This document shows positions 24,532-36,083 of a stretch of 64,000 bases of DNA, in pieces (position 1 is the first letter of the stretch; each line of letters begins with the position of its first letter). Source of the stretch: an uncultured Oscillospiraceae bacterium (GTDB lineage: Bacteria; Bacillota; Clostridia; Oscillospirales; Acutalibacteraceae); assembly GCA_949283785.1 (NCBI GenBank), contig CASDTR010000069.1:22897-86896 (forward strand), read 5' to 3'. The notes under the pieces are model-generated. The model saw only the letters and a program-made list of their open reading frames with translations, did no database searches and had not been told where the DNA came from. A program made the position numbers and the translations under genes.

Positions 24532-25092
24532 GTGGTAATTGATATATTTAAGGAAATACTGGTTTCGATTTACCGTTTGCCCATAGCAATACTTCTGATT
24601 TTTACGGTAATGCTGATTTTCGGAGGGCTGCTGTTCTGGCTGCACTTTATAAAAGACAAGAATAAAAGCTTTGTAAGCCTTGTGGCGCTTTTGATATCTG
24701 TATTTTTAATTTTAGCGATTACTGTCTTGAGCCGTGATTTTGGCAGCGTTCGTGAGCTTTCCCTTGTGCCTTTCTCGTCCTGGGCGGACTATTTTAAGGG
24801 CAGAAACGAGGAATATTTGCGCACCAATATTTATAATATGCTGCTGTTTATGCCTTTTGGGGCTTCCCTGTACGCCGTGGGATATCCCAACCTCTCCGTG
24901 AAAAAGTGTCTGATTATTACGGCTATGGCGGCTTTGTTCCTGAGTGTGGGGATAGAAGCGGTGCAATTTCTTTTGCAGTGCGGGGAGACTGAAACAGACG
25001 ACGTTATTCACAACGTTTTAGGTGCGGGTTTCGGGACCTTGCTTGCGGGAAACGTGTGTGATTTATACGAAAATCGCGTAAAAAGATACTGA
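24532..25092 (+). CDS. VanZ family membrane protein
   Basis: 186 residues, GTG start, four or five membrane helices. TVLSRDFGSVRELSLVPFSSWADYFKGRNEEYLRTNIYNMLLFMPFGASLYAVG and VGIEAVQFLLQCGETETDDVIHNVLGAGFG are the conserved VanZ-like blocks (SLVPF, NxxLFxPFG, ExxQ, R/TDDxxxNxxG). VanZ proteins give low-level glycopeptide tolerance in some hosts; most homologues are uncharacterised. It lies 19 bases before the nucleotidyltransferase gene and could belong to either the sugar locus or the peptide cluster. Confidence 0.85.
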   Translation: MVIDIFKEILVSIYRLPIAILLIFTVMLIFGGLLFWLHFIKDKNKSFVSLVALLISVFLILAITVLSRDFGSVRELSLVPFSSWADYFKGRNEEYLRTNIYNMLLFMPFGASLYAVGYPNLSVKKCLIITAMAALFLSVGIEAVQFLLQCGETETDDVIHNVLGAGFGTLLAGNVCDLYENRVKRY

Positions 25093-25111
25093 GATAGAGA
25101 TAGGAACATTT

Positions 25112-26359
25112 ATGGAAACTTATCACGTTTTATTTTTACAGGCTCTGGGAGCCTCACTTAAAAATAAAAAGGTTGCCTGGACCCAGGAAATCCCGTTGGA
25201 GCAGTGGGAGCGGCTGTTTGCATTGGCCGATGCACACAATGTTCTGCCAATGATATATGAAGCCGTGTATTCCTGTGAATCGGCAAAAGCCGTTCCCGTG
25301 CAGCTTATGGGAGCCGCAGCGCGTAAATCCATGCGCATGGTGTCCATGCAGGCAATGCAGACGGCCCAGTTTAAGCGTCTTTATGCCCGTTTGAGAGAGT
25401 CGGACGCGGCGCCGCTGGTTGTAAAGGGAATAGTCTGCCGCAGTCTTTATCCGAATCCCGACTACCGCTATTCGGGCGATGAGGATTTGCTTATTTCTCC
25501 CGATAAATTTCACCGCTGCCATGAGGTAATGGTGGATTTCGGTATGCGGCTTACGGACCCCGAAAAGGATATTGAAGCGGCCCACGAGCTGGGGTACGTC
25601 AAGGCGGGGAGCCCGATTTATATAGAGCTGCACAAAACGCTGTTTCCCCCCGAATCCGACGCATACGGGGATTTCAATAAGCTTTTTGCCCGTGTATGGG
25701 AGCATATTGTTGAAACGGAAGCCGAGGGCGAGCGATTTCTGACCCTCGGTTATACGGACCATTTGTTTTATCTTATCTGCCACGCTTTGAAGCATTTTCT
25801 TCACAGCGGTTTCGGCGTGCGGCAGGTGTGCGATATAGTATTGTTTGCCAAATACTACGGAAAGGATATCGACTGGCAGGACGTATATAACAGATGTAAG
25901 GCGGTAAACGGTGAAGTGTTTACGGCGGCTCTGTTTAAAATCGGCGAAAGGTATTTCGGCTTTGAGCCCGACGCAGCGTATCTGTCAAAAGCTTGGCGAA
26001 GCATTGAGACTGATGAGGAAATGCTGCTGGAGGATTTGCTTGAGGCGGGTATTTACGGCGATTCCGATTTGAGCCGCAAGCACAGCAGCAATATGACATT
26101 AAGCGCTGTGACGGCCGATAAGAAGGGGAAGAAAGCCAAAGGCGGAGTGATGAAATCGGTTTTTCCGTCGGCGAAGGCCTTGAGCGGACGTTATCCTTAT
26201 CTTAATGAAAAGCCGTATCTGCTGCCTGTGGCGTGGACTGACCGTTTGCTGAAATACCGAAAAGAGACTGCTTCAACGGCAAACAGCGATATTTCGGAGT
26301 CTTTGAAAATCGGCGGCAGGCGTGTTGAGCTTTTAAAAGAGTACAAAATAGTCAAATAA
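25112..26359 (+). CDS. PF14907-type nucleotidyltransferase of a peptide-modification cluster
   Basis: 415 residues. The core PLVVKGIVCRSLYPNPDYRYSGDEDLLISPDKFHR (about 101-135) has the GDEDLLI metal-binding acid pair (D123, D125) of nucleotidyltransferase-fold proteins in family PF14907. YTDHLFYLICHALKHFLHSGFGVRQVCDIVLF follows, and is also typical. These proteins commonly sit with PqqD-like proteins and HPr-kinase-like proteins in RiPP loci, including lasso peptide loci, where they act on a phosphorylated C-terminal serine. Here PqqD follows at 26512, and a kinase homologue is at 31092. Substrate is inferred, not seen. Confidence 0.82.
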   Translation: METYHVLFLQALGASLKNKKVAWTQEIPLEQWERLFALADAHNVLPMIYEAVYSCESAKAVPVQLMGAAARKSMRMVSMQAMQTAQFKRLYARLRESDAAPLVVKGIVCRSLYPNPDYRYSGDEDLLISPDKFHRCHEVMVDFGMRLTDPEKDIEAAHELGYVKAGSPIYIELHKTLFPPESDAYGDFNKLFARVWEHIVETEAEGERFLTLGYTDHLFYLICHALKHFLHSGFGVRQVCDIVLFAKYYGKDIDWQDVYNRCKAVNGEVFTAALFKIGERYFGFEPDAAYLSKAWRSIETDEEMLLEDLLEAGIYGDSDLSRKHSSNMTLSAVTADKKGKKAKGGVMKSVFPSAKALSGRYPYLNEKPYLLPVAWTDRLLKYRKETASTANSDISESLKIGGRRVELLKEYKIVK

Positions 26360-26412
26360 TTTCGCAAATCATGCCTATTAATGGTTATTATAATAAAAAT
26401 GCTTTTACGTTG

Positions 26413-26440
26413 TTGACAGTCAGAAAAAATATGATACTAT
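26413..26440 (+). promoter_or_regulatory. Promoter of the PqqD-precursor 1 unit
   Basis: TTGACA (26413-26418), 16 bases, TACTAT (26435-26440). It stands about 70 bases before the PqqD start and would drive pqqD and the first precursor gene up to the terminator at 27296. Confidence 0.65.
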
Positions 26441-26511
26441 ATATAGTGTTGAATTAGATACTTAACTGTATTTTTGTTATGTATCTGACACATTCAGCGG
26501 GAGGAAAAAAA

Positions 26512-26808
26512 TTGGAACAGATTTTACAGGATAAGCGCTTTAAGGCAAATCCCGATTTTCTTTTGAGGGAAATCGGCGGCGAGGCCGTACTGGTTCCCCT
26601 GGGGGATGTGGGTATTTTTGAGAACACCATGCTCTCACTTAACGAAACCTGTGCCTTTCTGTGGAAGGTTTTTCAGTCTCCTAAAACTGCTCGGGAGGCA
26701 ATCAATGAGGCTAAAGAGGCCTACGAAGGAGACGCTGCCGAAATAGAGCAGGGGGTTCTCAGTTTTATAAGAGACTACGCAAAATACAAATTATTACTGG
26801 AGGAATAA
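26512..26808 (+). CDS. PqqD-like RiPP recognition protein
   Basis: 98 residues from a TTG start placed 8 bases after GGGAGG; an ATG at 26479 would add 11 unlikely residues. NPDFLLREIGGEAVLVPLGDVGIFENTMLSLNETCAFLWKVFQSPKTAREAINEA is the PqqD pattern: two or three beta strands, then the LNETxxFLWxxL helix, then a winged helix. PqqD proteins bind the leader of a precursor peptide and present it to a radical SAM enzyme. Only 3 bases separate its stop from the precursor gene at 26812, so the two are translationally linked. Confidence 0.85.
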   Translation: MEQILQDKRFKANPDFLLREIGGEAVLVPLGDVGIFENTMLSLNETCAFLWKVFQSPKTAREAINEAKEAYEGDAAEIEQGVLSFIRDYAKYKLLLEE

Positions 26809-26811
26809 AAA

Positions 26812-27261
26812 ATGGTTAGATCAGCTTGGGTCAAGCCTATGACCCTTGTACAGAAATTTGAGGCAAATGAGTCGATAGCAGCATGCTATGAGATAGTGTG
26901 TGAAAGCGATCGAGAAGGAAAGGTTGATTGGGGTAAAGATACAACAGTTGGAAAAACTAATCATCCAGCAGACATTGATGGTTCAAATCCTTGGAATATT
27001 GATGATGATTTATGTAGTGGTTGGATTACTAAGAAGCACTCTGGCTGTAAAACAGCTTCTAATAATAATCTTATTTTCGCGAACGGTGATGTCACCTATG
27101 GTGGAAGCGATGGTTGGGTTGCACATACTGTTGATGTAAATGAAAACGGTGTAATAGATGCTGATGACCGTGTTTATTGGTGCACAGAAGAAACTTCGGC
27201 GGCATATTTTTGGCGTTGGAATCATTGGGGAACAGTTGCGCAAAGCGCCAACCGCTCATAA
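26812..27261 (+). CDS. Putative RiPP precursor 1, long core with EF-hand-like loop
   Basis: 149 residues, not a family I can name. Residues 6-20 (WVKPMTLVQKFEANE) are identical to precursor 2 at 28630 and serve as the likely leader; after it come SIAAC and C25-x4-C30. The core has five Cys in all (25, 30, 68, 79, 124), many Trp and Asn, and an EF-hand-like calcium loop DVNENGVIDADD (108-119). The end VYW...W-N-H-W-GTV...RS is shared in pattern with precursor 2. GGAGG precedes the start. Its length is large for a RiPP. PqqD is 3 bases upstream. Real gene: confident; role as precursor: inferred. Confidence 0.75.
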   Translation: MVRSAWVKPMTLVQKFEANESIAACYEIVCESDREGKVDWGKDTTVGKTNHPADIDGSNPWNIDDDLCSGWITKKHSGCKTASNNNLIFANGDVTYGGSDGWVAHTVDVNENGVIDADDRVYWCTEETSAAYFWRWNHWGTVAQSANRS

Positions 27262-27295
27262 TTACATAAAACTCTATTCAAAACCGTACATACAG

Positions 27296-27329
27296 GAGGC
27301 AGGCGAAAAGCCCGCCTCTTTTACTTTTG
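27296..27329 (+). terminator. Terminator after precursor 1
   Basis: GAGGCAGGC (27296-27304) pairs with GCCCGCCTC (27310-27318) with one A-C mismatch, loop GAAAA, tail TTTTACTTTT. Similar GGCGGGC-type terminators follow precursor 2 (29129), the micro-ORF (29710) and precede the radical SAM gene (29892). Confidence 0.85.
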
Positions 27330-27348
27330 CCCGAAATCAAGCACAAAC

Positions 27349-27970
27349 CCCGCCTCCCTTGTGTAAAGCAGGCTGAGCCTGCACCCAATTCGCGCACCTA
27401 ATTACAGCAGACGGTAAAAATATCTGCCCGCGAGCTGAAATTCAGCACTCACCCCGCCTCCCTTGTGTAAAGGGAGGTGGCAAGGCGAAAGCCTTGACGG
27501 AGGGATTGGCGGACACGTCCGCTATTCATCCGCGCACCAATTGGCAGCAGGAAACAACTATAGGTGCCCGCGAGAAGGTCTCGTATTGACGGAGGGATTG
27601 GCAGGCTGAGCCTGCACCCAAGACGCGCACCGAATTACGGTAAAAAACGGCTATAAGTGCCCACGAGACAGTTTACACATTGACAGAGGGATTGGCGGAC
27701 ACGTCCGCTATTCATCCGCGCACCAATTGGCAGCAGGAAACAACTATAGGTGCCCGCGAGAAGGTCTCGTATTGACGGAGGGATTGGCAACGTAATGCTG
27801 CACCCAAGACGCGCACCGAATTACGGTAAAAAGCGGCTATAAGTGCCCACGAGACAGTTTACACATTGACAGAGGGATTGACGGACACGTCCGCTTTCAA
27901 TCTGCGCACGTACTTACAGTAAAAAACAACTGTAAGTGCCCACGGGAGGATTCCTTTTTAACGGAGGAAT
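27349..27970. repeat. Tandem 93-bp repeat array with 186-bp higher-order period
   Basis: The motif TTGACGGAGGGATTGGC recurs with its TTGAC at 27494, 27586, 27680, 27772 and 27866, i.e. spacings 92/94/92/94, so units alternate and a 186-bp pair repeats (GGACACGTCC at 27511, 27697, 27883). Each unit carries a small palindrome after GGATTG: GCGGAC-AC-GTCCGC or GCAGGCT-G-AGCCTGC. The array opens with two further stems, CCTCCCTT/AAGGGAGG and CAAGGC-GAAA-GCCTTG (27456-27496). No open frame is credible. The same element recurs at 29181-29480, inverted at 29541-29594, and at 62298-62420. Confidence 0.85.
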
Positions 27971-28293
27971 TGCTGTTACAAAGCCGTACTAAAGTAATTT
28001 TTGGCTTTCTGCAGCGAGAAAAAGTGCAGAAAATAATTTTGTGCAGGTTGTTATATTTTCTATAACTCATCAGCATGTAGAAAATATCAATGCTGAACCG
28101 TCAGGAAGCATTGTCGTTTTCAATAAAAGCAAGGCTTTAAATTCTCTGAAAGCAATAAAAATATGGCAAAAAAGAAAAAAGAAAAAACGTTTTACCAAAC
28201 GAATATTATAGATGAAATGTAATTAATGCCCAAATAAACAAATTTTTATATAAATATTTGTATTAACAATTGCCATAAAATCTAATAATATCC
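27971..28293. other. AT-rich spacer between repeat array and precursor 2 promoter
   Basis: About 320 bases with no credible gene. It holds a perfect 8-bp stem TTTCTGCA (28006-28013) / TGCAGAAA (28025-28032) and is otherwise strongly AT-rich, which suits its place upstream of the promoter at 28294. Confidence 0.4.
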
Positions 28294-28321
28294 TTGACAA
28301 ATAATTAAAAAGTGATAAAAT
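28294..28321 (+). promoter_or_regulatory. Promoter of precursor 2
   Basis: TTGACA (28294-28299), 16 bases, TAAAAT (28316-28321), in the context TTGACAAATA...GTGATAAAATTA. Almost the same string occurs at 29809-29836 before the radical SAM gene. It implies a leader of about 300 bases ahead of precursor 2. Confidence 0.75.
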
Positions 28322-28402
28322 TACATTAAAGAAATATTTGAAATTTATTTGTTGTTGTCAGCTGTTATGTTGAAAATAACGTGTGAGAACGAAAAAGCTT
28401 CT

Positions 28403-28470
28403 AACGTTAACTTGGCTTCTATTTGGCAAGTTTTTCGGAATTTCGCTTATGCATTTATGAATTCCGAAAA
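28403..28470 (+). promoter_or_regulatory. Structured 5' leader of precursor 2
   Basis: Within the roughly 300-base untranslated leader there is a perfect 11-bp stem TTTTCGGAATT (28432-28442) / AATTCCGAAAA (28460-28470). Just before it, AACTTG and CAAGTT pair and are followed by TTTTT near 28435, which looks like a small terminator. The two share bases and could be alternative folds. This suggests attenuation or a processing site, unproven. Confidence 0.4.
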
Positions 28471-28629
28471 TCGTTGAAAGGCCTTTGCGGCTTTCGGGTA
28501 AGCTTCTGCTTCCGAGACCGACAGAGCAAATAACCTTCACGGCAGCTGCTCACGGCGGCGCATAGCGGACGTAAGTAAAGTTTTCGCTTGGCTGATAAGT
28601 TTCAAATATTAATACTGGAGGTATGAAAA

Positions 28630-29103
28630 ATGGGAAGAACAACATGGGTTAAGCCGATGACCTTGGTACAGAAATTTGAGGCGAATGAGGCTGTGGCATC
28701 ATCATGCTGGGGAGTAGGATGCGATACTGTTGCTGCGAACGCTTGGGATGGAGATCATCCTCAGTATCATCCAAACGCTGGTTCTAAGTTGTTTCCTTAT
28801 TATCCTAATCATGATCCGGCATCTTGTGGTGATATAACTCATCAGTTTTTAAGAGATATAGATGGAAACGGTACCGCTGACGTAATGTATGAGCTTAAAG
28901 ATGGTAAGGAACTTGAATGTGCCATTTATTCTGATTCGAACTACACAAATCCTATCTCTGTTGATAGCATAACACCCGGCATGACAATATATTGGACGAC
29001 AGTAACCGATACGGGTAAAATTTGGCCTAATCCGACAGAAGCAACTTGGCATCATGTAGGTACGGTTGAAGCGACTTATCCCGGTCATCCCCTTCGCTCA
29101 TAA
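28630..29103 (+). CDS. Putative RiPP precursor 2, paralogue of precursor 1
   Basis: 157 residues. Residues 6-20 are identical to precursor 1, then AVASSC with C26-x4-C31. The core differs: C66, C97, rich in Asn, Pro, His and Asp, with a calcium-loop-like DIDGNGTAD (76-84). The C-terminal pattern IYW-T...W-H-H-V-GTV and the last two residues Arg-Ser match precursor 1. The ribosome site context TACTGGAGG-AT-AAAAATG is nearly the same in both genes. A constant leader with a divergent core is the usual sign of a precursor family. It has its own promoter (28294) and terminator (29129). Confidence 0.75.
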   Translation: MGRTTWVKPMTLVQKFEANEAVASSCWGVGCDTVAANAWDGDHPQYHPNAGSKLFPYYPNHDPASCGDITHQFLRDIDGNGTADVMYELKDGKELECAIYSDSNYTNPISVDSITPGMTIYWTTVTDTGKIWPNPTEATWHHVGTVEATYPGHPLRS

Positions 29104-29128
29104 GAGTACATATTGACAGACCTATTTA

Positions 29129-29165
29129 AAGAGGCGGGCGTAAATCGTCCGCCTCTTAATTCTTT
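29129..29165 (+). terminator. Terminator after precursor 2
   Basis: AAGAGGCGG (29129-29137) pairs with CCGCCTCTT (29149-29157), extended inward by three pairs around the loop TAAAT; a modest T-rich tail (AATTCTTTA) follows. Confidence 0.8.
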
Positions 29166-29180
29166 ATAGACAAATCTTAT

Positions 29181-29480
29181 TTCAGCACTCACCCCGCCTC
29201 CCTTGTGTAAAGGGAGGTGTCAAGGCGAAAGCCTTGACGGAGGGATTGGCAGGTTAAACCTGCACACAAATCGCACACCAAGTTACTGTAATCTTAAAGC
29301 TTTCTGCCTGCGTTTAGCACAAAGCCTTGACGGAGGGATTGGCAAACTGAGGTTGCGTCCAATTCGCGTACTAAGTTACGGTAAAAACCAACTATAGTTG
29401 CCTGCGAGAAAGCTTCATTTTGACTGAGGGATGAGCAACGTAACGCTTCACCCAATTCACATATCAAGGTACGGAGCACA
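29181..29480. repeat. Second block of the 93-bp interspersed repeat
   Basis: Bases 29181-29250 match 27441-27510 almost exactly (TTCAGCACTCACCCCGCCTC onward). Three TTGAC motifs lie at 29234, 29327 and 29420, exactly 93 bases apart. Later units are more degenerate than in the first array. Confidence 0.8.
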
Positions 29481-29540
29481 ACGTATATGTCAATCGTCAC
29501 CCATAACAAAAAGCGTGAAATAATTCAGTTATATCTTCAT

Positions 29541-29594
29541 AAACAATCCCTCAGTCAGCGTTGCTGACAGCTCCCTTTACACAAGGGAGCCGAC
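29541..29594. repeat. Inverted copy of the interspersed repeat head
   Basis: AACAATCCCTCAGTCAGC through CTCCCTTTACACAAGGGAGC is the reverse complement of the head of the 93-bp element (CTCCCTTGTGTAAAGGGAG...GAGGGATTG). With 29181-29480 it makes an inverted pair, as a transposable or palindromic element would leave. Confidence 0.75.
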
Positions 29595-29642
29595 GAAACA
29601 CCTGCTTTCTGCCGTAAAATTCAATTCTGTTTGGAGAAAAAT

Positions 29643-29705
29643 ATGTTTGCACAGCTGAGAAAATATACTTTCCAAGCCGTTCATAAATACATATTAATCG
29701 TTTAA
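29643..29705 (+). CDS. Possible 20-residue micro-ORF
   Basis: ATG at 29643 lies 6 bases after GGAG (29633-29636). The frame encodes 20 residues, MFAQLRKYTFQ followed by AVHKYILIV, a basic and hydrophobic peptide, and stops at 29703. A strong terminator follows 4 bases later. No promoter is clear and no homologue is known to me. It could be a real small peptide or what is left of a third precursor cassette; chance is also possible. Confidence 0.25.
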   Translation: MFAQLRKYTFQAVHKYILIV

Positions 29706-29709
29706 TCAG

Positions 29710-29739
29710 ACAGGCGGGCGTTTTGCCCGTCTGTTTTTG
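29710..29739 (+). terminator. Third GGCGGGC-type terminator
   Basis: ACAGGCGGGC (29710-29719) pairs with GCCCGTCTGT (29725-29734) around GTTTT with one G-U, followed by TTTTT. No full gene ends here, only the 20-codon frame at 29643. Confidence 0.8.
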
Positions 29740-29808
29740 TCTGTCAGGTGCGGTTCCTGTCGGCTCCTTATTTTAATGTTTCTGGCAGCGCAAAGCCTTC
29801 TGTTACCA

Positions 29809-29836
29809 TTGACAAATACATATAAAATGATAAAAT
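29809..29836 (+). promoter_or_regulatory. Promoter before the radical SAM gene
   Basis: TTGACA (29809-29814), 16 bases, TAAAAT (29831-29836). Compare TTGACAAATA...TGATAAAATTA here with the precursor 2 promoter at 28294-28321; they share the -35, spacing, -10 and flanks. Confidence 0.75.
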
Positions 29837-29891
29837 TATAGAGATTATAATATTTTATGCCGCAGATTGTCGTCGGCCTTTCCGTAAACTC

Positions 29892-29924
29892 AAGGGGCGG
29901 GCTATTTAACTCCCGCCTCTTTTT
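29892..29924 (+). terminator. Terminator-like hairpin between promoter and radical SAM gene
   Basis: AAGGGGCGGG (29892-29901) pairs with CCCGCCTCTT (29912-29921), one G-U, loop of 10, followed by TTTT. It stands 16 bases before the start codon of the radical SAM gene, with AAAGGAG right behind it. Transcripts from 29809 would either stop here after some 80 bases or read through, so it may be an attenuator. Confidence 0.75.
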
Positions 29925-29940
29925 ATATAAAGGAGCAATT

Positions 29941-31095
29941 ATGAATCATTATACTTCTGAGGATACCCTCGAAAAAAACATGATAAAATATGCCGCCGCC
30001 AAAAGTGTGCCCATAAACGGCAGCTTCGAGCTGCTGCCTCTTTGTAACATGAACTGCAAAATGTGCTATGTGCGTCTGAGCCGCGAGGAAATGGAGCAAA
30101 AGGGCAGGCTGCGCACCGCCGACGAATGGCTTTCCCTTGCCGAACAGATGCAGAAGGCGGGAACACTTTTTCTGCTTCTTACGGGAGGAGAACCTCTCAT
30201 GTATCCTGATTTCAAAAAACTTTACATGGGTTTAAAAAAGCTTGGCGTATTTATAACAGTAAACACCAACGGAACTCTTTTAAATGAAGAGTGGGCAGAT
30301 TTCTTTGCCGCAAATAAGCCCCGCCGCATAAACATGACCCTTTACGGCGCCGACGAAAAGGCCTATGCGGATTTATGCCGCTATCCCGACGGATTTGAAA
30401 AGACCATGAACGCATTCAGGCTTCTCAAAGAGCGCGATGTGCCCGCAAAAATCAGCTTCAGCGCCACTCCCGCCAACGTTTCTTTTCTTGATGATATTTA
30501 CCGTATCGGCAAGGAACTTGATATGCTTGTTGAAACGGATACCTATATGATACCTGCTATTAAAGAGCGAGGTCTGCCGATTTCCGAGCAGTCCCGCCTC
30601 GCCCCTGAGCAGGCGGCGGCGGCCCGCGTCAGGGTGATACGTCACGATATCGGAGAGGAGAACTTCGGCGAATATGTTGATGCGGTTTTGAATCAAATTG
30701 AAAATGACGACTCCGTTCATCCCGACGGGGTCACCTGCCTTGCGGGCAACTGCGGCTTTACCGTAAACTGGAAAGGGGAAATGAAGCCCTGCGTCACCTT
30801 TGACGAGCCCGCTGTCTCTGTATTCGATGTGGGCTTTGAAGAAGCATGGCGTCAGATTTCGCAAAAGACGAAAGAGTTTCGCTTAAACCCTAAATGCGTA
30901 AGCTGTAAAATTCGGATTTTATGTCCCGTGTGCGTTGCCACCGCAAAGCTTGAAACGGGCAGTCACGACGGTGTACCCGAGTATCTTTGCCGCTACGCCG
31001 AGGAAACGCTCCGTCTGTTCAGAGAGGAGCAGAAAAATTATAAAAGCGAAAAACAGGAAGAAACGACTGTCCCCGCAAAGGAAGATGAAGAATGA
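29941..31095 (+). CDS. Radical SAM/SPASM peptide-modifying enzyme
   Basis: 384 residues. The radical SAM cluster motif is C35-x3-C39-x2-C42 (CNMNCKMC), followed by LLLTGGEPLMYPDF (about 78-91) that binds AdoMet. The C-terminal SPASM-like region has Cys at 266, 271, 284, 319, 322, 328, 331 and 350, enough for two auxiliary 4Fe-4S clusters. Such enzymes make thioether or C-C cross-links or epimers in RiPPs. Start at 29941 for AAAGGAG 6 bases upstream; the frame stays open back to ATG 29857 through the terminator hairpin, but without a ribosome site. It overlaps the kinase-like gene by 4 bases. Confidence 0.9.
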   Translation: MNHYTSEDTLEKNMIKYAAAKSVPINGSFELLPLCNMNCKMCYVRLSREEMEQKGRLRTADEWLSLAEQMQKAGTLFLLLTGGEPLMYPDFKKLYMGLKKLGVFITVNTNGTLLNEEWADFFAANKPRRINMTLYGADEKAYADLCRYPDGFEKTMNAFRLLKERDVPAKISFSATPANVSFLDDIYRIGKELDMLVETDTYMIPAIKERGLPISEQSRLAPEQAAAARVRVIRHDIGEENFGEYVDAVLNQIENDDSVHPDGVTCLAGNCGFTVNWKGEMKPCVTFDEPAVSVFDVGFEEAWRQISQKTKEFRLNPKCVSCKIRILCPVCVATAKLETGSHDGVPEYLCRYAEETLRLFREEQKNYKSEKQEETTVPAKEDEE

Positions 31096-31985
31096 TAAAA
31101 AAATGGTATCGCTTCGGTAAAACGGCCATGTACATTCAGCGCCCCGACAATATGATAATCCCCGAAAATATGAGCAAATTTGAAATCTCCGAGCCCTCCG
31201 TCGAAGATAAAAAGGTCTATTATGAAATAGAATTTGTTGACGATACGAAGCCTGTGTGTGAAAAAATAATAGCGAATGAGCCGAAAGTGCTTGCAAAGCG
31301 GATAAATTTTATCGTAATGGAAACCCCTGCGGGAGAGTGCAGATTTTTATACCTGATAGGGTGGAGCCTTCCCTTCGCTGTCGCTCTTCAAACCGCCGAG
31401 GACAAATGGAAGGTCTTTATAGATACCAAGAGCGCAGGGGAGCTTCACTGGGATACGGTATTTATTTCCGTTCTCAGTCTTGAGAAACATATAATTTCCT
31501 GGGGAGGTATGATTCTGCATACTGCCTTTTTGTGTCATAAGGGAGAAGCCATACTGTTTTCGGGTCCCTCCGAGGTGGGCAAATCAACTCAGGCAGGGCT
31601 TTGGGAAAAATACACAGAAGATTCCCGCACCGTAAACGGCGACCGCTGTCTCCTGCGAAAGGAAAACGGGGTCTGGTACGCCTGCGGCTGGCCCATATGC
31701 GGCAGTTCGGGTATTTGCAATAATGAAAAATATCCCGTAAAAGCTATCGTTATGCTCAGGCAGGCAAAGGAAAACCGCTGTGAACGTCTTTTAGGGGCAA
31801 AAGCCTTCGGTGAGGTTTTTGCGCAGCTTACGGTCAATAACTGGAACCCTGATTTTAAACGCACCGTAATTGATAATACAGAGTCATTGCTCAACGAAAT
31901 AGAAGTTTATGAGCTTTACTGCGATATTTCAGAAAACGCCGTAAAAAGTCTTGAGGAAAAGCTTTATCCGCAAAGCTCTGTTTGA
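31092..31985 (+). CDS. HPr-kinase-like protein of the peptide cluster
   Basis: 297 residues. The C-terminal half has the HprK Walker A in ILHTAFLCHKGEAILFSGPSEVGKSTQAGLW (G158 to S165) and VNGDRCLLR with a likely metal-binding Asp; the N-terminal 140 residues are not recognised. It lacks the HPr-binding features of true HprK. Homologues in the paeninodin lasso peptide cluster phosphorylate the C-terminal Ser of the precursor. Both precursors here end in Arg-Ser, so the same reaction is a fair guess. It overlaps the radical SAM gene by 4 bases. Confidence 0.82.
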   Translation: MIKKWYRFGKTAMYIQRPDNMIIPENMSKFEISEPSVEDKKVYYEIEFVDDTKPVCEKIIANEPKVLAKRINFIVMETPAGECRFLYLIGWSLPFAVALQTAEDKWKVFIDTKSAGELHWDTVFISVLSLEKHIISWGGMILHTAFLCHKGEAILFSGPSEVGKSTQAGLWEKYTEDSRTVNGDRCLLRKENGVWYACGWPICGSSGICNNEKYPVKAIVMLRQAKENRCERLLGAKAFGEVFAQLTVNNWNPDFKRTVIDNTESLLNEIEVYELYCDISENAVKSLEEKLYPQSSV

Positions 31986-32020
31986 GTATTTTGCAAGAAC
32001 CTGTAAAAATCTGTCGCCTA

Positions 32021-32049
32021 TTGCGAATTTTATATATTATTGTTAAAAT
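32021..32049 (+). promoter_or_regulatory. Promoter before the ABC exporter
   Basis: TTGCGA (32021-32026), 17 bases, TAAAAT (32044-32049), 36 bases before the start codon at 32085. It would let exporter and peptidase be made apart from the modifying enzymes. Confidence 0.5.
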
Positions 32050-32084
32050 AAACATTAAGCATTAAAAAGACAGGGAGCGTACTT

Positions 32085-33875
32085 ATGGACGAAGAAAACA
32101 AGGAAATCCAAGGCAGTAAAAGCTTTGAATCGCTTGACATACTTATACGCCGCTGGAAGGACGGTACCTTCGGCGAAATAATCGACGACTGGAAATGGAT
32201 ATTTACTTACAGCGCCCGCTATAAAAAGGTAATTGCCTTTTATTTGATTCTGGGTATTTTAAGCACTACCCTCGGTCTTGTCAGCAGTGTTGCAAGCAAA
32301 TATCTGATTGATATTATCACAGGCCACGACACGGGCAAGCTGTGGATACTTATAACCGTTGCGGTGGGCAGTACGGTTTTCAGCCTTGTTTTCGGCAGTA
32401 TTCTCAGCCGAATCAATGCGAAAATAAGCATAGATATCAGCAACGACATTCAGGCGGATATCTTTGACCAAATCGTTGACGCCGACTGGCTGGCTCTCAA
32501 TAATTATACAAACGGCGATATCCTCAACCGCTTCACGGGCGATGTGAGTACTATAAGCTCAAACGCCATAAGCTGGCTGCCATCCATAGTTCTCGCCATT
32601 TATAACTTTATCGCCACTTTCTGTCTGATTCTTTACTACGACTGGATTATGGCCCTTTTCGCCTTCGGCACCGCGCCACTTATGCTGATTATGTCCCGCT
32701 TTGTAATTAAAAAGCAGAGGGACTATAACAAAAAAATGCGCGAAATGAGCAGTGAGGTAATGACTTTTGAAGTTGATACCTTCTACAATTTCGATACTAT
32801 CAAATCTTTCGGCATATCTCATCTTTACAGCAAAAAGCTCCGCTGGTGGCAGCAAAAATTCAAGGATATCAGCCTTAAATACAATATGTTTTCAATTAAG
32901 ACGAACATCGTCATGTCGGTAATGGGCTCCGTTGTACAGTTCGCTGCCTTCGGCTACTGTCTTTTCCGTCTTTGGACAAACGGCATTACTTACGGTACCA
33001 TGACTCTGTTCTTGCAGCAGAAGAGTAAGCTTTCCAGCGCTTTCAGCAGTGTTGTTTCCATTATTCCGTCATTTCTCAACAGCTCTGTTTCTGCTCACCG
33101 TATCCGTGAGATTGTGCAGCTTCCCAGAGAAGTACATATCCCCGAGAGCAGCAAAATGGATGAGTTTATTAAAGACGGCTTTACCGTAAAAATGGAAAAC
33201 ACCAATTTTGCCTATAAAGAGGGAACTCATGTAATTACTGATTCCGACTTCATAGCGAGACCCGGCGAAATTGTCGCGCTGGTAGGACCTTCGGGTGAGG
33301 GAAAAACCACTATGATACGCCTTATTTTAGGTCTCGTCAGACCTCAGAACGGCGACGTTACTTTGTGCGCTGCAAACGGCGAGAGCGTTCCCATGAATAC
33401 GGAAACACGCCATATGTTCGCCTATGTGCCTCAGGGCAACACAATTTTGACGGGAACCATTGCGGAGAATATGCGTATGGTAAAAGAGGAAGCCACAGAT
33501 GAAGAAATAATCGAGGCACTGAAAGTTGCGTGCGCATGGGATTTTGTGGAAAAGCTTCCCGATACGATAAATACAAATATCGGAGAAAGAGGCAGAGGTC
33601 TATCTGAGGGACAGGCTCAGCGTATCGCCATTGCCCGCGCCATACTTCGTGACGCGCCTATCCTTCTTCTTGATGAAGCGACCTCGGCTCTTGACGTTAC
33701 GACGGAGCGCATGGTGCTTAAAAATATCGTGCATCAGCATCCCAATAAGACATGTATTGTCACCACTCACCGTCCCAGCGTACTTAATCTCTGTCAGCGT
33801 GTTTACAGAGTTATGCAGACTAAGGTAACTCAGCTGAGCGAAGAAGAATCAAGCCGCATGGCTATAGATTTTTAA
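32085..33875 (+). CDS. ABC exporter, fused permease and ATPase
   Basis: 596 residues. After about 45 soluble residues there are six membrane helices (about 50-330), then a nucleotide-binding domain: Walker A GPSGEGKTT (about 405-413), Q-loop YVPQGNTIL, signature LSEGQAQRIAIARAIL, Walker B ILLLDEATSALD and the switch histidine in VTTHRP. It is a half-transporter that would act as a dimer. No N-terminal C39 peptidase domain is present, so leader removal must be done elsewhere, probably by the signal peptidase gene that follows after 14 bases. Cargo is inferred to be the modified precursors. Confidence 0.9.
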   Translation: MDEENKEIQGSKSFESLDILIRRWKDGTFGEIIDDWKWIFTYSARYKKVIAFYLILGILSTTLGLVSSVASKYLIDIITGHDTGKLWILITVAVGSTVFSLVFGSILSRINAKISIDISNDIQADIFDQIVDADWLALNNYTNGDILNRFTGDVSTISSNAISWLPSIVLAIYNFIATFCLILYYDWIMALFAFGTAPLMLIMSRFVIKKQRDYNKKMREMSSEVMTFEVDTFYNFDTIKSFGISHLYSKKLRWWQQKFKDISLKYNMFSIKTNIVMSVMGSVVQFAAFGYCLFRLWTNGITYGTMTLFLQQKSKLSSAFSSVVSIIPSFLNSSVSAHRIREIVQLPREVHIPESSKMDEFIKDGFTVKMENTNFAYKEGTHVITDSDFIARPGEIVALVGPSGEGKTTMIRLILGLVRPQNGDVTLCAANGESVPMNTETRHMFAYVPQGNTILTGTIAENMRMVKEEATDEEIIEALKVACAWDFVEKLPDTINTNIGERGRGLSEGQAQRIAIARAILRDAPILLLDEATSALDVTTERMVLKNIVHQHPNKTCIVTTHRPSVLNLCQRVYRVMQTKVTQLSEEESSRMAIDF

Positions 33876-33889
33876 ATGTGAGGGACTTT

Positions 33890-34348
33890 ATGCAAAAGGG
33901 AACGCTCAATACAAGGGAATATGTAGGCATGCTAAAGGAGCTTGTGGAACAGGGTGATACGGTTTCCATGCGGATTGTCGGCAGCAGTATGTCTCCTTTT
34001 CTCATACATAACCGTGATATCATTATTTTCAAAGCTCCCGACCGAAAGCTGCGAAGAGGAGATATGGTATTTTTTCAGCGAGATTCGGGACAATATGTAA
34101 TGCACCGCATATATTCCGAAAAAAAGGACGGATACTATATTATAGGTGATGCGCAGACCGAGCTTGAAGGCCCCGTAAGGCCTGAACAGATTTTTGCACT
34201 TGTAATTAAAGTTAAGCGCAAGGACAAATGGCTTGAGCCGGGAAATTTCTGGTGGGAGTTTTTTGCAAGGGTATGGATTCGTTCAATACGCTTGAGAAAG
34301 GTTTTTACGAAAATTTACGGCGGAGTTCATAAGCTTTTCCGAAGGTAG
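33890..34348 (+). CDS. S24/S26 signal peptidase, SipW-like
   Basis: 152 residues. SMRIVGSSMSPFLIHNRDIIIFK holds the catalytic serine in GSSM (S33) and RGDMVFFQRDSGQYVMHRI holds the histidine that replaces lysine in SipW/archaeal-type peptidases; YYIIGDAQ follows. The usual membrane anchor is not obvious, but the C-terminal third is amphipathic and basic (FFARVWIRSIRLRKVF). It is 14 bases after the peptidase-less exporter and so is the candidate leader peptidase. Start at 33890 follows GAGGG; a GTG at 33878 is possible. Confidence 0.85.
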   Translation: MQKGTLNTREYVGMLKELVEQGDTVSMRIVGSSMSPFLIHNRDIIIFKAPDRKLRRGDMVFFQRDSGQYVMHRIYSEKKDGYYIIGDAQTELEGPVRPEQIFALVIKVKRKDKWLEPGNFWWEFFARVWIRSIRLRKVFTKIYGGVHKLFRR

Positions 34349-34358
34349 AGTTTGCCTG

Positions 34359-34387
34359 TTGTGAAAGAGGATAAGTTATGGTATAAT
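34359..34387 (+). promoter_or_regulatory. Promoter of the polysaccharide control operon
   Basis: TTGTGA (34359-34364), 17 bases, TATAAT (34382-34387) with an extended TGG before the -10 box. It starts a new unit right after the peptide cluster and 40 bases before the phosphatase gene. Confidence 0.75.
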
Positions 34388-34426
34388 ACATATTTATACA
34401 ACGCAAAACAAGGAAGAGGACTGCCC

Positions 34427-35185
34427 ATGGTTGATATTCACTGCCACATTCTGCCCGGCCTTGATGACGGGGCCGCCACTGTGTACGATACTTTAGATAT
34501 GGCGTATTTGGCATATAAAAGCGGAACTGAGCAGATAGCGGCAACGTCCCACTGCAATATTCCGGGACTGTATAATAATTACTATGATGACGTATACCGA
34601 AACACTTTTAAATTAGCCCAAAATGCTATTGAAAATGAAGGTATCCCCATAACACTGATGCCGGGTATGGAGGTATTTGCAACGGCGAATCTGCCGCAGC
34701 TGATAGCTGAAAAAAAGGTTATAGGCTTGAATAACACACGCAATATTTTAATTGAATTTAATTTTTCAGAGGATCCGGAGTTTGCGGATTTTATTTTAAA
34801 TAAGGTATACAGCAGCGGAATGACTCCTGTAATAGCTCACGCTGAAAGATATGATTTTGTGCAGGAATATCCCGAAAGAGTATTTCAATGGCACAGCAAG
34901 GGATATTTTGTGCAGGTAAATAAAGGAAGCTTTTGCGGCAGGTTTGGCAGAAGCGCCGAAAAAACAGCTTTTTTATTGCTTAATCATAATTTGATCACTG
35001 CTGTTGCCAGTGACGCTCACAGTCAGGTGCGTCGAACTCCGTGTATGTCTGAGGCTTACGATTATCTTGCCCCGGAGTATCCGGAAGAATATTTGAACGA
35101 TTTATTTATAACAAATCCAAGGAGACTTTGCCGCGGGGAAGCACCGATACAGTTTCAAAAAATTCCTTTTGATGAAAAGGTATAA
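34427..35185 (+). CDS. PHP-type protein tyrosine phosphatase, CpsB/YwqE-like
   Basis: 252 residues. MVDIHCHILPGLDDGA is the first PHP metal motif (HxH). ATSHCNIPG, GMEVFA, VIAHAERYD and VASDAHSQ supply the other metal ligands in the order expected for CpsB. These Mn-dependent phosphatases dephosphorylate BY-kinase tyrosine clusters and so reset capsule chain growth; two BY-kinases follow downstream. Start at 34427 because GGAAGAGG lies just before it and the strong promoter at 34359-34387 excludes the upstream TTG at 34352. Confidence 0.92.
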   Translation: MVDIHCHILPGLDDGAATVYDTLDMAYLAYKSGTEQIAATSHCNIPGLYNNYYDDVYRNTFKLAQNAIENEGIPITLMPGMEVFATANLPQLIAEKKVIGLNNTRNILIEFNFSEDPEFADFILNKVYSSGMTPVIAHAERYDFVQEYPERVFQWHSKGYFVQVNKGSFCGRFGRSAEKTAFLLLNHNLITAVASDAHSQVRRTPCMSEAYDYLAPEYPEEYLNDLFITNPRRLCRGEAPIQFQKIPFDEKV

Positions 35186-35204
35186 ATAAGAAGGAGCAGC
35201 ATCA

Positions 35205-36083
35205 ATGAAAAAAATACGAATAGCGGTTATTGCATTATTTGCCCTCTCTGTTGTGGCGTTAGCGACGTTTACAATATGGTCAAACTTAGATAAAGATGAG
35301 ACGCCTCCCGTATTGGAGTATGATGAAAGCAGCATTATTGTCAGCGTAAAAGACGGCGAAAGCGCATTGCTCAAAGGTCTGACTGCAAGTGATGATGTAG
35401 ACGGTGATATTACTGACGCCATTCGTATCTCCTCCATTTCTCATTTTGCCGAACAGGGCAAGAGAACGGTGGAATATGTTGTTTTTGACTCGTCAAACAA
35501 CTTTGCAACATGCAGGCGTACCGTACAATATAACGATTATGAGTCTCCGCGCATTTATCTGGATGCTCCGTTCAGAATCAGCATGTCAGAACTTGATTCC
35601 ATAGATACCACCTCCTGCATGAGGGTAGAGGATGTACTGGACGGGGATATTTCAAATAAGATACGCCTTTCCTTTGACGACGGATCATACATACAGGGAC
35701 CGGGGTTCTATAATGTTACGGCCCAGGTCAGCAACAGTGCGGGAGATACTGTTTCCCTGGCGCTTGAAATGAATATTATTGATTCCGGCAACAGCAGTGA
35801 AACCCAGAAATACTATCCGACGCTTTCTGATTATGTTCTGTATGTCAAAGTGGATGAGGCTGTTAATCTGAAAACGTATTTGACCGGTGTGACGAGAAGC
35901 GGGCAGCAGTATGACTTTTCCGGAGGCGAATCTGAGAGCGTACTCAATATTACCCGTGACGATATCAATATTGTCAATCATGTGGATTTCAGTACACCGG
36001 GTACATATACGGTTGATTACAGTTATACATCCCCGTCGGGTGTTACGGGGCTTACCAAGATGATTGTAGTGGTAGAGGAGTGA
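35205..36083 (+). CDS. Secreted or anchored protein with Ig-like (DUF5011-type) domains
   Basis: 292 residues. A signal-anchor helix (about 5-25) follows KKIR. Then come Ig-like units: ETPPVLEYDESSIIVSVKDGESALLKGLTASDDVDGDITDAI...VVFDSSNNFATCRRTVQY (about 35-105), a second with ESPRIYLD...DVLDGDISNKIRLSF...VSNSAGDTVSLALEM (about 107-190), and a third less clear one ending TYTVDYSYTSPSGVTGLTKMIVVVEE. The DDVDGDIT pattern is typical of DUF5011-like surface repeats. It has no LPxTG. Its presence between phosphatase and BY-kinase is odd; it might sense or hold the polymer outside the membrane. Confidence 0.75.
   Translation: MKKIRIAVIALFALSVVALATFTIWSNLDKDETPPVLEYDESSIIVSVKDGESALLKGLTASDDVDGDITDAIRISSISHFAEQGKRTVEYVVFDSSNNFATCRRTVQYNDYESPRIYLDAPFRISMSELDSIDTTSCMRVEDVLDGDISNKIRLSFDDGSYIQGPGFYNVTAQVSNSAGDTVSLALEMNIIDSGNSSETQKYYPTLSDYVLYVKVDEAVNLKTYLTGVTRSGQQYDFSGGESESVLNITRDDINIVNHVDFSTPGTYTVDYSYTSPSGVTGLTKMIVVVEE

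Follow-up and report, generated by a model that had tools for sequence, protein, structure and literature searches.

The 64,000-nucleotide stretch of DNA analysed here (the window), from contig CASDTR010000069.1 of an uncultured Oscillospiraceae bacterium, carries at positions 25112-34348 a cluster of eight genes for two leader-bearing precursor proteins and the proteins that may modify, export and cleave them. An earlier note had described this cluster as resembling those for ribosomally synthesized and post-translationally modified peptides (RiPPs). All eight genes named there are open and intact, lie on the + strand and keep the coordinates first given, and Pfam and NCBIfam back the assignment of the enzymes, the PqqD-like protein and the transporter. 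The cluster is a conserved, RiPP-like combination of known parts, and it sits in a same-strand run of capsule and exopolysaccharide genes. This setting, a near-invariant C-terminal serine, loci with several modules and three promoter-like sites were absent from the earlier note. The eight genes and their conserved 3' neighbor are as follows.

25112-26359, + strand: PF14907 nucleotidyltransferase, for which a PsmN-like role is proposed (Pfam E 1.6e-48; motif KG...S-x-DED)
26479-26808, + strand: PqqD-like protein, predicted to bind leaders as a RiPP recognition element (Pfam E 1.4e-11)
26812-27261, + strand: precursor A, 149 residues, type 1, ending ...NRS, with loop DVNENGVIDADD (sequence, alignment)
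28630-29103, + strand: precursor B, 157 residues, type 1, ending ...LRS, with loop DIDGNGTAD (sequence, alignment, model)
29941-31095, + strand: radical S-adenosylmethionine (SAM) enzyme, 384 residues, with CxxxCxxC and eight C-terminal cysteines (Pfam 4e-27; clusters with type-1 radical SAM enzymes)
31092-31985, + strand: HPr-kinase-like (HPrK-like) kinase (ScmC match 2.2e-7; predicted fold like HprK/P; P-loop G163, K164)
32085-33875, + strand: ABC exporter without a C39 domain (Pfam ABC_membrane and ABC_tran)
33878-34348, + strand: S26/SipW-like Ser-His peptidase (S24), in which no transmembrane-like stretch was found (Pfam Peptidase_S24 1.7e-7; NCBIfam; alignment)
34352-35185, + strand: CpsB/CapC phosphatase, the conserved 3' neighbor (Pfam 5.7e-56)

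The motif of the nucleotidyltransferase is invariant in 12 aligned sequences, and the peptidase retains one serine and one histidine that are invariant in 11, as is the case in SipW-type enzymes. The radical SAM gene likely starts at 29941 and not at 29857, as an AAGGAG ribosome site precedes the former. Its product had been called a radical SAM/SPASM enzyme: the Radical_SAM match and the eight C-terminal cysteines bear out the first part of this name, whereas the SPASM match, at 18.5 bits, falls below the Pfam cut-off of 21.5. The description of the exporter as lacking a C39 domain agrees with its Pfam matches, among which that domain was not reported.

A search of the genome collection with a profile of four precursors gave 102 pattern matches, and the counts that follow cover the 13 loci confirmed by tblastn. 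These precursor-seeded loci come from 12 assemblies of Anaerofilum, Mediterraneibacter, Merdimonas, Blautia and uncultured Firmicutes, and include those of the culturable species Mediterraneibacter catenae and Merdimonas faecis (L019 and L020). Genes for PqqD, radical SAM enzyme, HPrK, ABC exporter and S24 peptidase are all present in 11 of the 13, and the first two lie beside the precursor in 12. The earlier note had said that precursors widespread without such neighbors would speak against its reading; here there is a single orphan (L017), whose assembly carries a complete cluster (L016) elsewhere. This orphan (also recovered at L006, 1240-1647) has the same leader and a C-terminal NRS, and lies near glycosyltransferase-like and MATE-like genes, named by eye. 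In locus L011, PqqD, precursor and radical SAM genes are present, and HPrK is not in the stretch. The exporter is 77-80% identical to that of the window in 10 of the 13 loci and 95% identical in the genus-mate L016, and CpsB follows directly after the peptidase gene in 10 of 13. A plain duplication of two genes, with no system around them, is rejected because the neighbors are conserved across genera. The earlier claim of a complete make-modify-export-cleave system thus holds for a dedicated make-modify-export gene set, in which the precursors travel with PqqD and the radical SAM enzyme, while leader binding by PqqD, cleavage and secretion are presumed.

Two or more radical SAM genes, as precursor-radical SAM modules, occur in 6 of the 13 loci. 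The typical multi-module layout is a PqqD-type 1 precursor-radical SAM module together with a second one of PqqD, type 2 precursor, radical SAM, HPrK, ABC and S24; the window has two type-1 precursors with one PqqD and one radical SAM gene. Judged by precursor search, the system appears rare: a single-sequence query found relatives in 2 of the 300 genomes that represent the family of the window, and further searches found them in 1 of 391 genomes of its class, the window's own, in 2 of 3 of its genus, and in no viral contigs or plasmids.

With the radical SAM enzyme as query, a seed independent of the precursors, 26 of 397 genomes matched in the family of genome G589. The 28 regions fetched cover all 26 genomes and part of the matches, and 25 of them contain an HPrK homologue, the others being two short contigs (L099 and L108) and L120. 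In a tree of 53 radical SAM rows, all seven type-1-labelled rows fall into one 99/99 clade with the enzymes of the window, of L016 and of L020 (unlabelled), and 10 of the 12 type-2-labelled rows fall into another 99/99 clade. The phylogeny of the enzyme thus appears to follow precursor type largely, the two having diverged together. More distant radical SAM-HPrK clusters (L109-L123) have mostly short precursors of 79-108 residues (146 in L117), often with an F-x-S end, and capsule genes adjoin those of L114, L117, L121 and L122. A further leader-bearing peptide of 96 residues with a serine end, missed by the leader pattern, lies at 2748-3038 of L107 beside a second HPrK and radical SAM pair.

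The two precursors of the window matched no Pfam family. They had been described as sharing an identical leader, which is accurate for the 15 residues WVKPMTLVQKFEANE, whereas residues 1-24 are just 75% identical. Between the window and L016, leaders are 79-96% identical and cores 29-44%, with the cluster enzymes and CpsB at 77-95%. The C-terminal residue is serine in 42 of 44 distinct precursors, both window precursors included (38 of 40 distinct candidates, to which the window pair, L101 and L017 were added). Candidates were chosen by leader pattern and adjacency, independently of their C-terminal end, and the radical SAM-seeded set by itself gives 18 of 20. The background for a serine end is 35 of 700 open reading frames (ORFs) of at least 200 residues (5%) and 3 of 243 neighboring enzyme ORFs. 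In the alignments, the invariant residues of type 1 (13 sequences) include three cysteines, one histidine and the C-terminal serine, and those of type 2 (10 sequences) include three cysteines and the serine.

The naming of these proteins as calcium-motif precursors holds at the level of sequence. A calcium-like loop, D-x-[DN]-x-[DN]-[GNDK]-x-x-[DE], is found in 14 of 34 long precursors, where shuffling gives a mean of 0.23, and in 11 of 701 background ORFs, so that its presence in precursors is above chance. Calcium binding was nevertheless set aside as a defining trait because, among the precursors, only these 14 long ones and none of the 10 short ones have the loop. The model of precursor B, built on an alignment of 13 sequences, predicts a beta-rich domain with a mean predicted local distance difference test score (pLDDT) of 80 and a predicted template-modelling score of 0.71; pLDDT is at least 80 in nine of the ten 10-residue blocks of residues 31-130. 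A Foldseek search of this model retrieved no usable match in the PDB (best E 0.54). The possibility that the precursors are chance ORFs is rejected because their cores are conserved across genera and their predicted fold is largely confident.

Upstream of the cluster, Pfam identifies an aminotransferase, a sugar transferase (PF02397), glycosyltransferases, EpsG, a pyruvyl transferase and a UDP-galactopyranose mutase. Downstream lie CpsB, an Ig-like surface protein, two ATPases and a LytR-CpsA-Psr (LCP) protein; the ATPases are presumably Wzz/Wzc-like, and their Pfam matches are to the AAA/ParA part. A tblastn search with 16 capsule proteins (E 1e-15) found capsule markers in 13 of the 28 radical SAM-seeded regions (448 kb) and in none of 37 arbitrary stretches (557 kb) drawn from 19 of the same 26 genomes. 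With a stricter marker set the count is 12 of 28. Two further regions, both reaching a contig end, show related arrangements: in L059, CpsB, Wzz/Wzc-like genes, an ABC exporter (42% identical) and PF14907 share one capsule operon, and in L060, CpsB, ABC and PF14907 are present.

This linkage bears on a somewhat unlikely alternative, in which the product is a secreted, bacteriocin- or toxin-like RiPP in the style of sactipeptides or ranthipeptides, with thioethers made by the radical SAM enzyme at the cysteine pair and with a tail tag, added by the kinase and the nucleotidyltransferase, that serves immunity or export; the capsule locus would then be a convenient genomic niche only. Several features are in keeping with it: the closest sequence match of the radical SAM enzyme among solved structures is SkfB (E 2.3e-11), four cysteines is the most frequent count among long precursors (24 of 34), and conserved leaders with divergent cores are expected under antagonism. 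The capsule linkage and the position directly upstream of CpsB argue the other way, as do cores of about 125 residues whose fold is for the most part predicted with confidence; sactipeptide cores are typically shorter. Moreover, none of the 10 proteins scanned could be recognised as an immunity protein.

Pattern and hairpin scans of the cluster retrieved the following candidate signals.

26413-26440, + strand: promoter-like site TTGACA-N13-TGATACTAT, 5' of the pqqD and precursor A genes (pattern scan)
28294-28321, + strand: promoter-like site 5' of precursor B (pattern scan)
29809-29836, + strand: promoter-like site 5' of the radical SAM, HPrK, ABC and peptidase genes (pattern scan)
27301-27317, + strand: weak terminator-like hairpin of 5 pairs, 3' of precursor A (hairpin scan)
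29129-29157, + strand: terminator-like hairpin of 12 pairs, 3' of precursor B (hairpin scan)
29892-29926, + strand: hairpin and U-run just 5' of the radical SAM ribosome site (fold z -2.3; 5 of 200 shuffles fold equally well)

The three promoter-like sites are near-identical, with an extended -10, and their common form, TTGACA-N13-TGATAMWAT, a pattern derived post hoc from them, has no other match in the 64 kb. Outside this genome the exact pattern was found, among 190 loci, in L021 only, about 35 bases 5' of pqqD. Scan-wide, promoter-like sites number 33 against 19.5 in shuffles and terminator-like hairpins 18 against 11.3. The hairpin at 29892-29926 is a possible attenuator, and Rfam gave no matches across 25000-35300. 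Intergenic repeats lie on both sides of precursor B (27333-27972 and 29181-29600): one is 70 nt long and has 44 matches across this genome, the other is a 186-nt unit present twice in tandem. They may have helped precursor duplication.

The promoter-like sites of the precursors, together with the CpsB, two Wzz/Wzc-like and LCP proteins that come directly after the cluster, could also fit a modified peptide that signals to, or regulates, capsule synthesis and is sensed by the adjoining CpsB/Wzc phosphorylation system. We consider this improbable: long, folded, fast-diverging cores are ill-suited to a signal, and the Pfam scan, which covered 30 proteins and thus part of the window's genes, revealed neither a dedicated receptor nor a response regulator.

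The near-invariant C-terminal serine points to a possible role of the kinase and of the nucleotidyltransferase. The former had been named HPr-kinase-like, and this is borne out by family matches and predicted fold. The Pfam HPr-kinase family gave it no significant match (1 of 14 homologues matched, E 0.034); NCBIfam ScmC is matched by all 14 aligned homologues (E up to 0.01) and HprK-related kinase A by 4 of them, the window kinase itself scoring 30.5 bits against ScmC, far under the cut-off of 125. P-loop residues G163 and K164 are invariant in the 14 sequences. The AlphaFold model (pLDDT 87) retrieved phosphoenolpyruvate carboxykinase (PEPCK) with a best Foldseek E of 1.0e-6 and HprK/P (1kkl) at 6e-6; against 1jb1 the template-modelling score normalised to the target is 0.55, and global root mean square deviations are poor. 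Sequence searches of the PDB gave no hits for the kinase profile or for PF14907, and only an insignificant match (E 0.27) for the single kinase sequence.

Among 391 genomes of the window's class, presumably Clostridia, searched at E 1e-10 for PF14907 and 1e-15 for the kinase, relatives of the former occur in 90 and of the latter in 109: both in 83, PF14907 only in 7, kinase only in 26 and neither in 275. The kinase is thus present in 83 of 90 genomes with PF14907 and in 26 of 301 others, and the two genes lie within 8 kb of each other in at least 22 genomes, the window's included. For lasso peptides, passages of the reviews PMC9266682 and PMC8498205 report that PadeK places a phosphate on the C-terminal serine of the paeninodin precursor and that, in pseudomycoidin, phosphorylation is the work of PsmK and the addition of one or two hexoses that of PsmN. 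This chemistry is the ground for proposing a tail tag made by the window kinase and the PF14907 enzyme.

We therefore propose, with a probability of about 0.5, that the cluster is a RiPP-like pathway built into a capsule or exopolysaccharide locus, in which radical SAM chemistry on a folded protein is joined to a lasso-type phospho-glycosyl tail tag and the product is displayed on the capsule. Gene content, conservation, co-divergence of radical SAM enzyme and precursor, the C-terminal serine, co-occurrence of kinase and nucleotidyltransferase, capsule linkage and the predicted kinase fold are observed; the chemical steps, cleavage site, secretion and capsule association are inferred. PqqD would bind the leader, through [WY]xxP...F followed in long precursors by N-E-x-[VI]-A, and present it to the radical SAM enzyme, which, having co-diverged with its substrate, would modify the core, most likely near the conserved cysteine pair just past the leader. 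The HPrK-like enzyme would then put a phosphate on the C-terminal serine, and the PF14907 enzyme would attach a sugar or sugar-nucleotide to it, in the way reported for PsmK and PsmN in pseudomycoidin. The product would leave through the ABC exporter, and the SipW-like peptidase would cut where the leader ends in small residues (I-A-A for precursor A, V-A-S for precursor B). The result would be a folded domain of about 120 residues, in many cases bearing a calcium-like loop, that is presented on the capsule of the surrounding operon or attached to it.

A number of observations weigh against this proposal. Fifteen of the 28 radical SAM-seeded regions, some of them short contigs, have no capsule marker, and the Fisher P of 1e-52 for the association of kinase and PF14907 is uncorrected for kinship. 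Two precursors do not end in serine (L098, ...NASV; L110, ...SST). Pairing is also not strict: the type-2 clade does not take in the type-2-labelled radical SAM enzymes of L098 and L099, and the type-1 precursors of L012 and L022 are accompanied by a type-2 radical SAM enzyme only. L120 has a related radical SAM enzyme and no HPrK in 19.9 kb. Because the peptidase is without a membrane anchor, it may cleave inside the cell. Thirteen regions (L178-L190) fetched for closeness of kinase and PF14907 add to these points. A radical SAM gene is visible in just three of them (L180, L181 and L187); L184, L186, L189 and L190 have PqqD, kinase, peptidase, ABC and PF14907 without it, and L182 has PqqD, kinase, peptidase and PF14907 with neither radical SAM nor ABC gene. 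Inspection of these regions by eye yielded seven short peptides that look leader-like (three in L180, two in L181 and one apiece in L186 and L188); their last residues are V, K, K, I, N, F and P, so that serine is absent. Because of these regions, the kinase/PF14907 pair is not tied everywhere to a radical SAM enzyme or to a C-terminal serine, and it may act elsewhere than on that residue. As a separate observation, the modules of L182, L184 and L186 adjoin large proteins with leucine-rich or InlB-type repeat domains.

An improbable alternative takes up these findings: the kinase and nucleotidyltransferase would act on a lipid or glycan carrier and not on the precursor, and the serine would be kept for export or processing. 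The seven peptides and the 10 of 13 regions without a visible radical SAM gene favor it, as does genome G589, in which PF14907 and PqqD lie in a capsule locus (L054) and the radical SAM enzyme, HPrK and precursor on another contig (L116). Set against it are the retention of the terminal serine in nearly all precursors although other C-terminal residues vary, and the fact that this residue is the known site of the lasso HPrK homologues, as described in the same passages of PMC9266682 and PMC8498205.

Returning to the tagged, capsule-displayed protein, an unlikely stronger version is that a phosphodiester at the C-terminal serine links the mature proteins covalently to the capsular polysaccharide. 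In it the kinase would make phosphoserine, the PF14907 enzyme would attach the first sugar, and the capsule machinery would extend or ligate the glycan, giving a bacterial capsule phosphoproteoglycan with radical SAM-modified, calcium-loop peptide heads. The proposal itself, if true, would join RiPP modification and capsule biosynthesis, two separately studied subjects, in gut Firmicutes. It would give the pair of PF14907 and HPrK-like enzymes, found together in 83 of 391 class genomes, a role in tagging C-terminal serines of exported peptides, and would widen the reach of PqqD and radical SAM enzymes to folded substrates the size of proteins. What gut commensals carry on their surface matters for their recognition by phage, host and neighbors, and the divergent cores would be well placed to confer specificity there.

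Among known systems, the lasso pathways of pseudomycoidin and paeninodin share with the window a PqqD-type leader binder, an HPrK-like kinase, an ABC exporter and a C-terminal serine, and the pseudomycoidin pathway also shares the nucleotidyltransferase. The window thus holds a kinase homologous to HPrK, a serine-ended precursor and, if kinship of PsmN with PF14907 is assumed, the nucleotidyltransferase of the pseudomycoidin type. In contrast to these pathways, it has a radical SAM enzyme, an S26-like peptidase, a core of about 125 residues in place of a short lasso, and a capsule locus. Membership among lasso peptides is rejected because the Pfam scan of 30 window proteins revealed neither a B2 leader protease nor an asparagine-synthetase-like cyclase. 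The SynChlorMet cassette (NCBIfam ScmA-F) likewise places PqqD-like, HPrK-like (ScmC) and radical SAM/SPASM proteins side by side, but the window scores below the NCBIfam cut-offs for ScmC, ScmE (67.2 against 400 bits) and ScmF (44.1 against 400), and is not assigned to it. With sactipeptides and ranthipeptides it shares a radical SAM enzyme with a C-terminal cysteine cluster, a PqqD-like partner and a cysteine-bearing core, and differs in its very long folded precursor, C-terminal serine, kinase and nucleotidyltransferase; thioethers are hypothetical here. The leaders weakly resemble the precursor family of the sactipeptide StsA (streptosactin), at 13.6 and 14.0 bits against an NCBIfam NF045558 cut-off of 42, and membership is not supported. 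No description of the present system was found in the literature searched, which included parts of PMC4289311, PMC10036551, PMC9266682 and PMC8498205. What the window does share with RiPP pathways in general is their basic arrangement, a leader-bearing precursor beside a predicted leader-binding domain and a predicted modifying enzyme.

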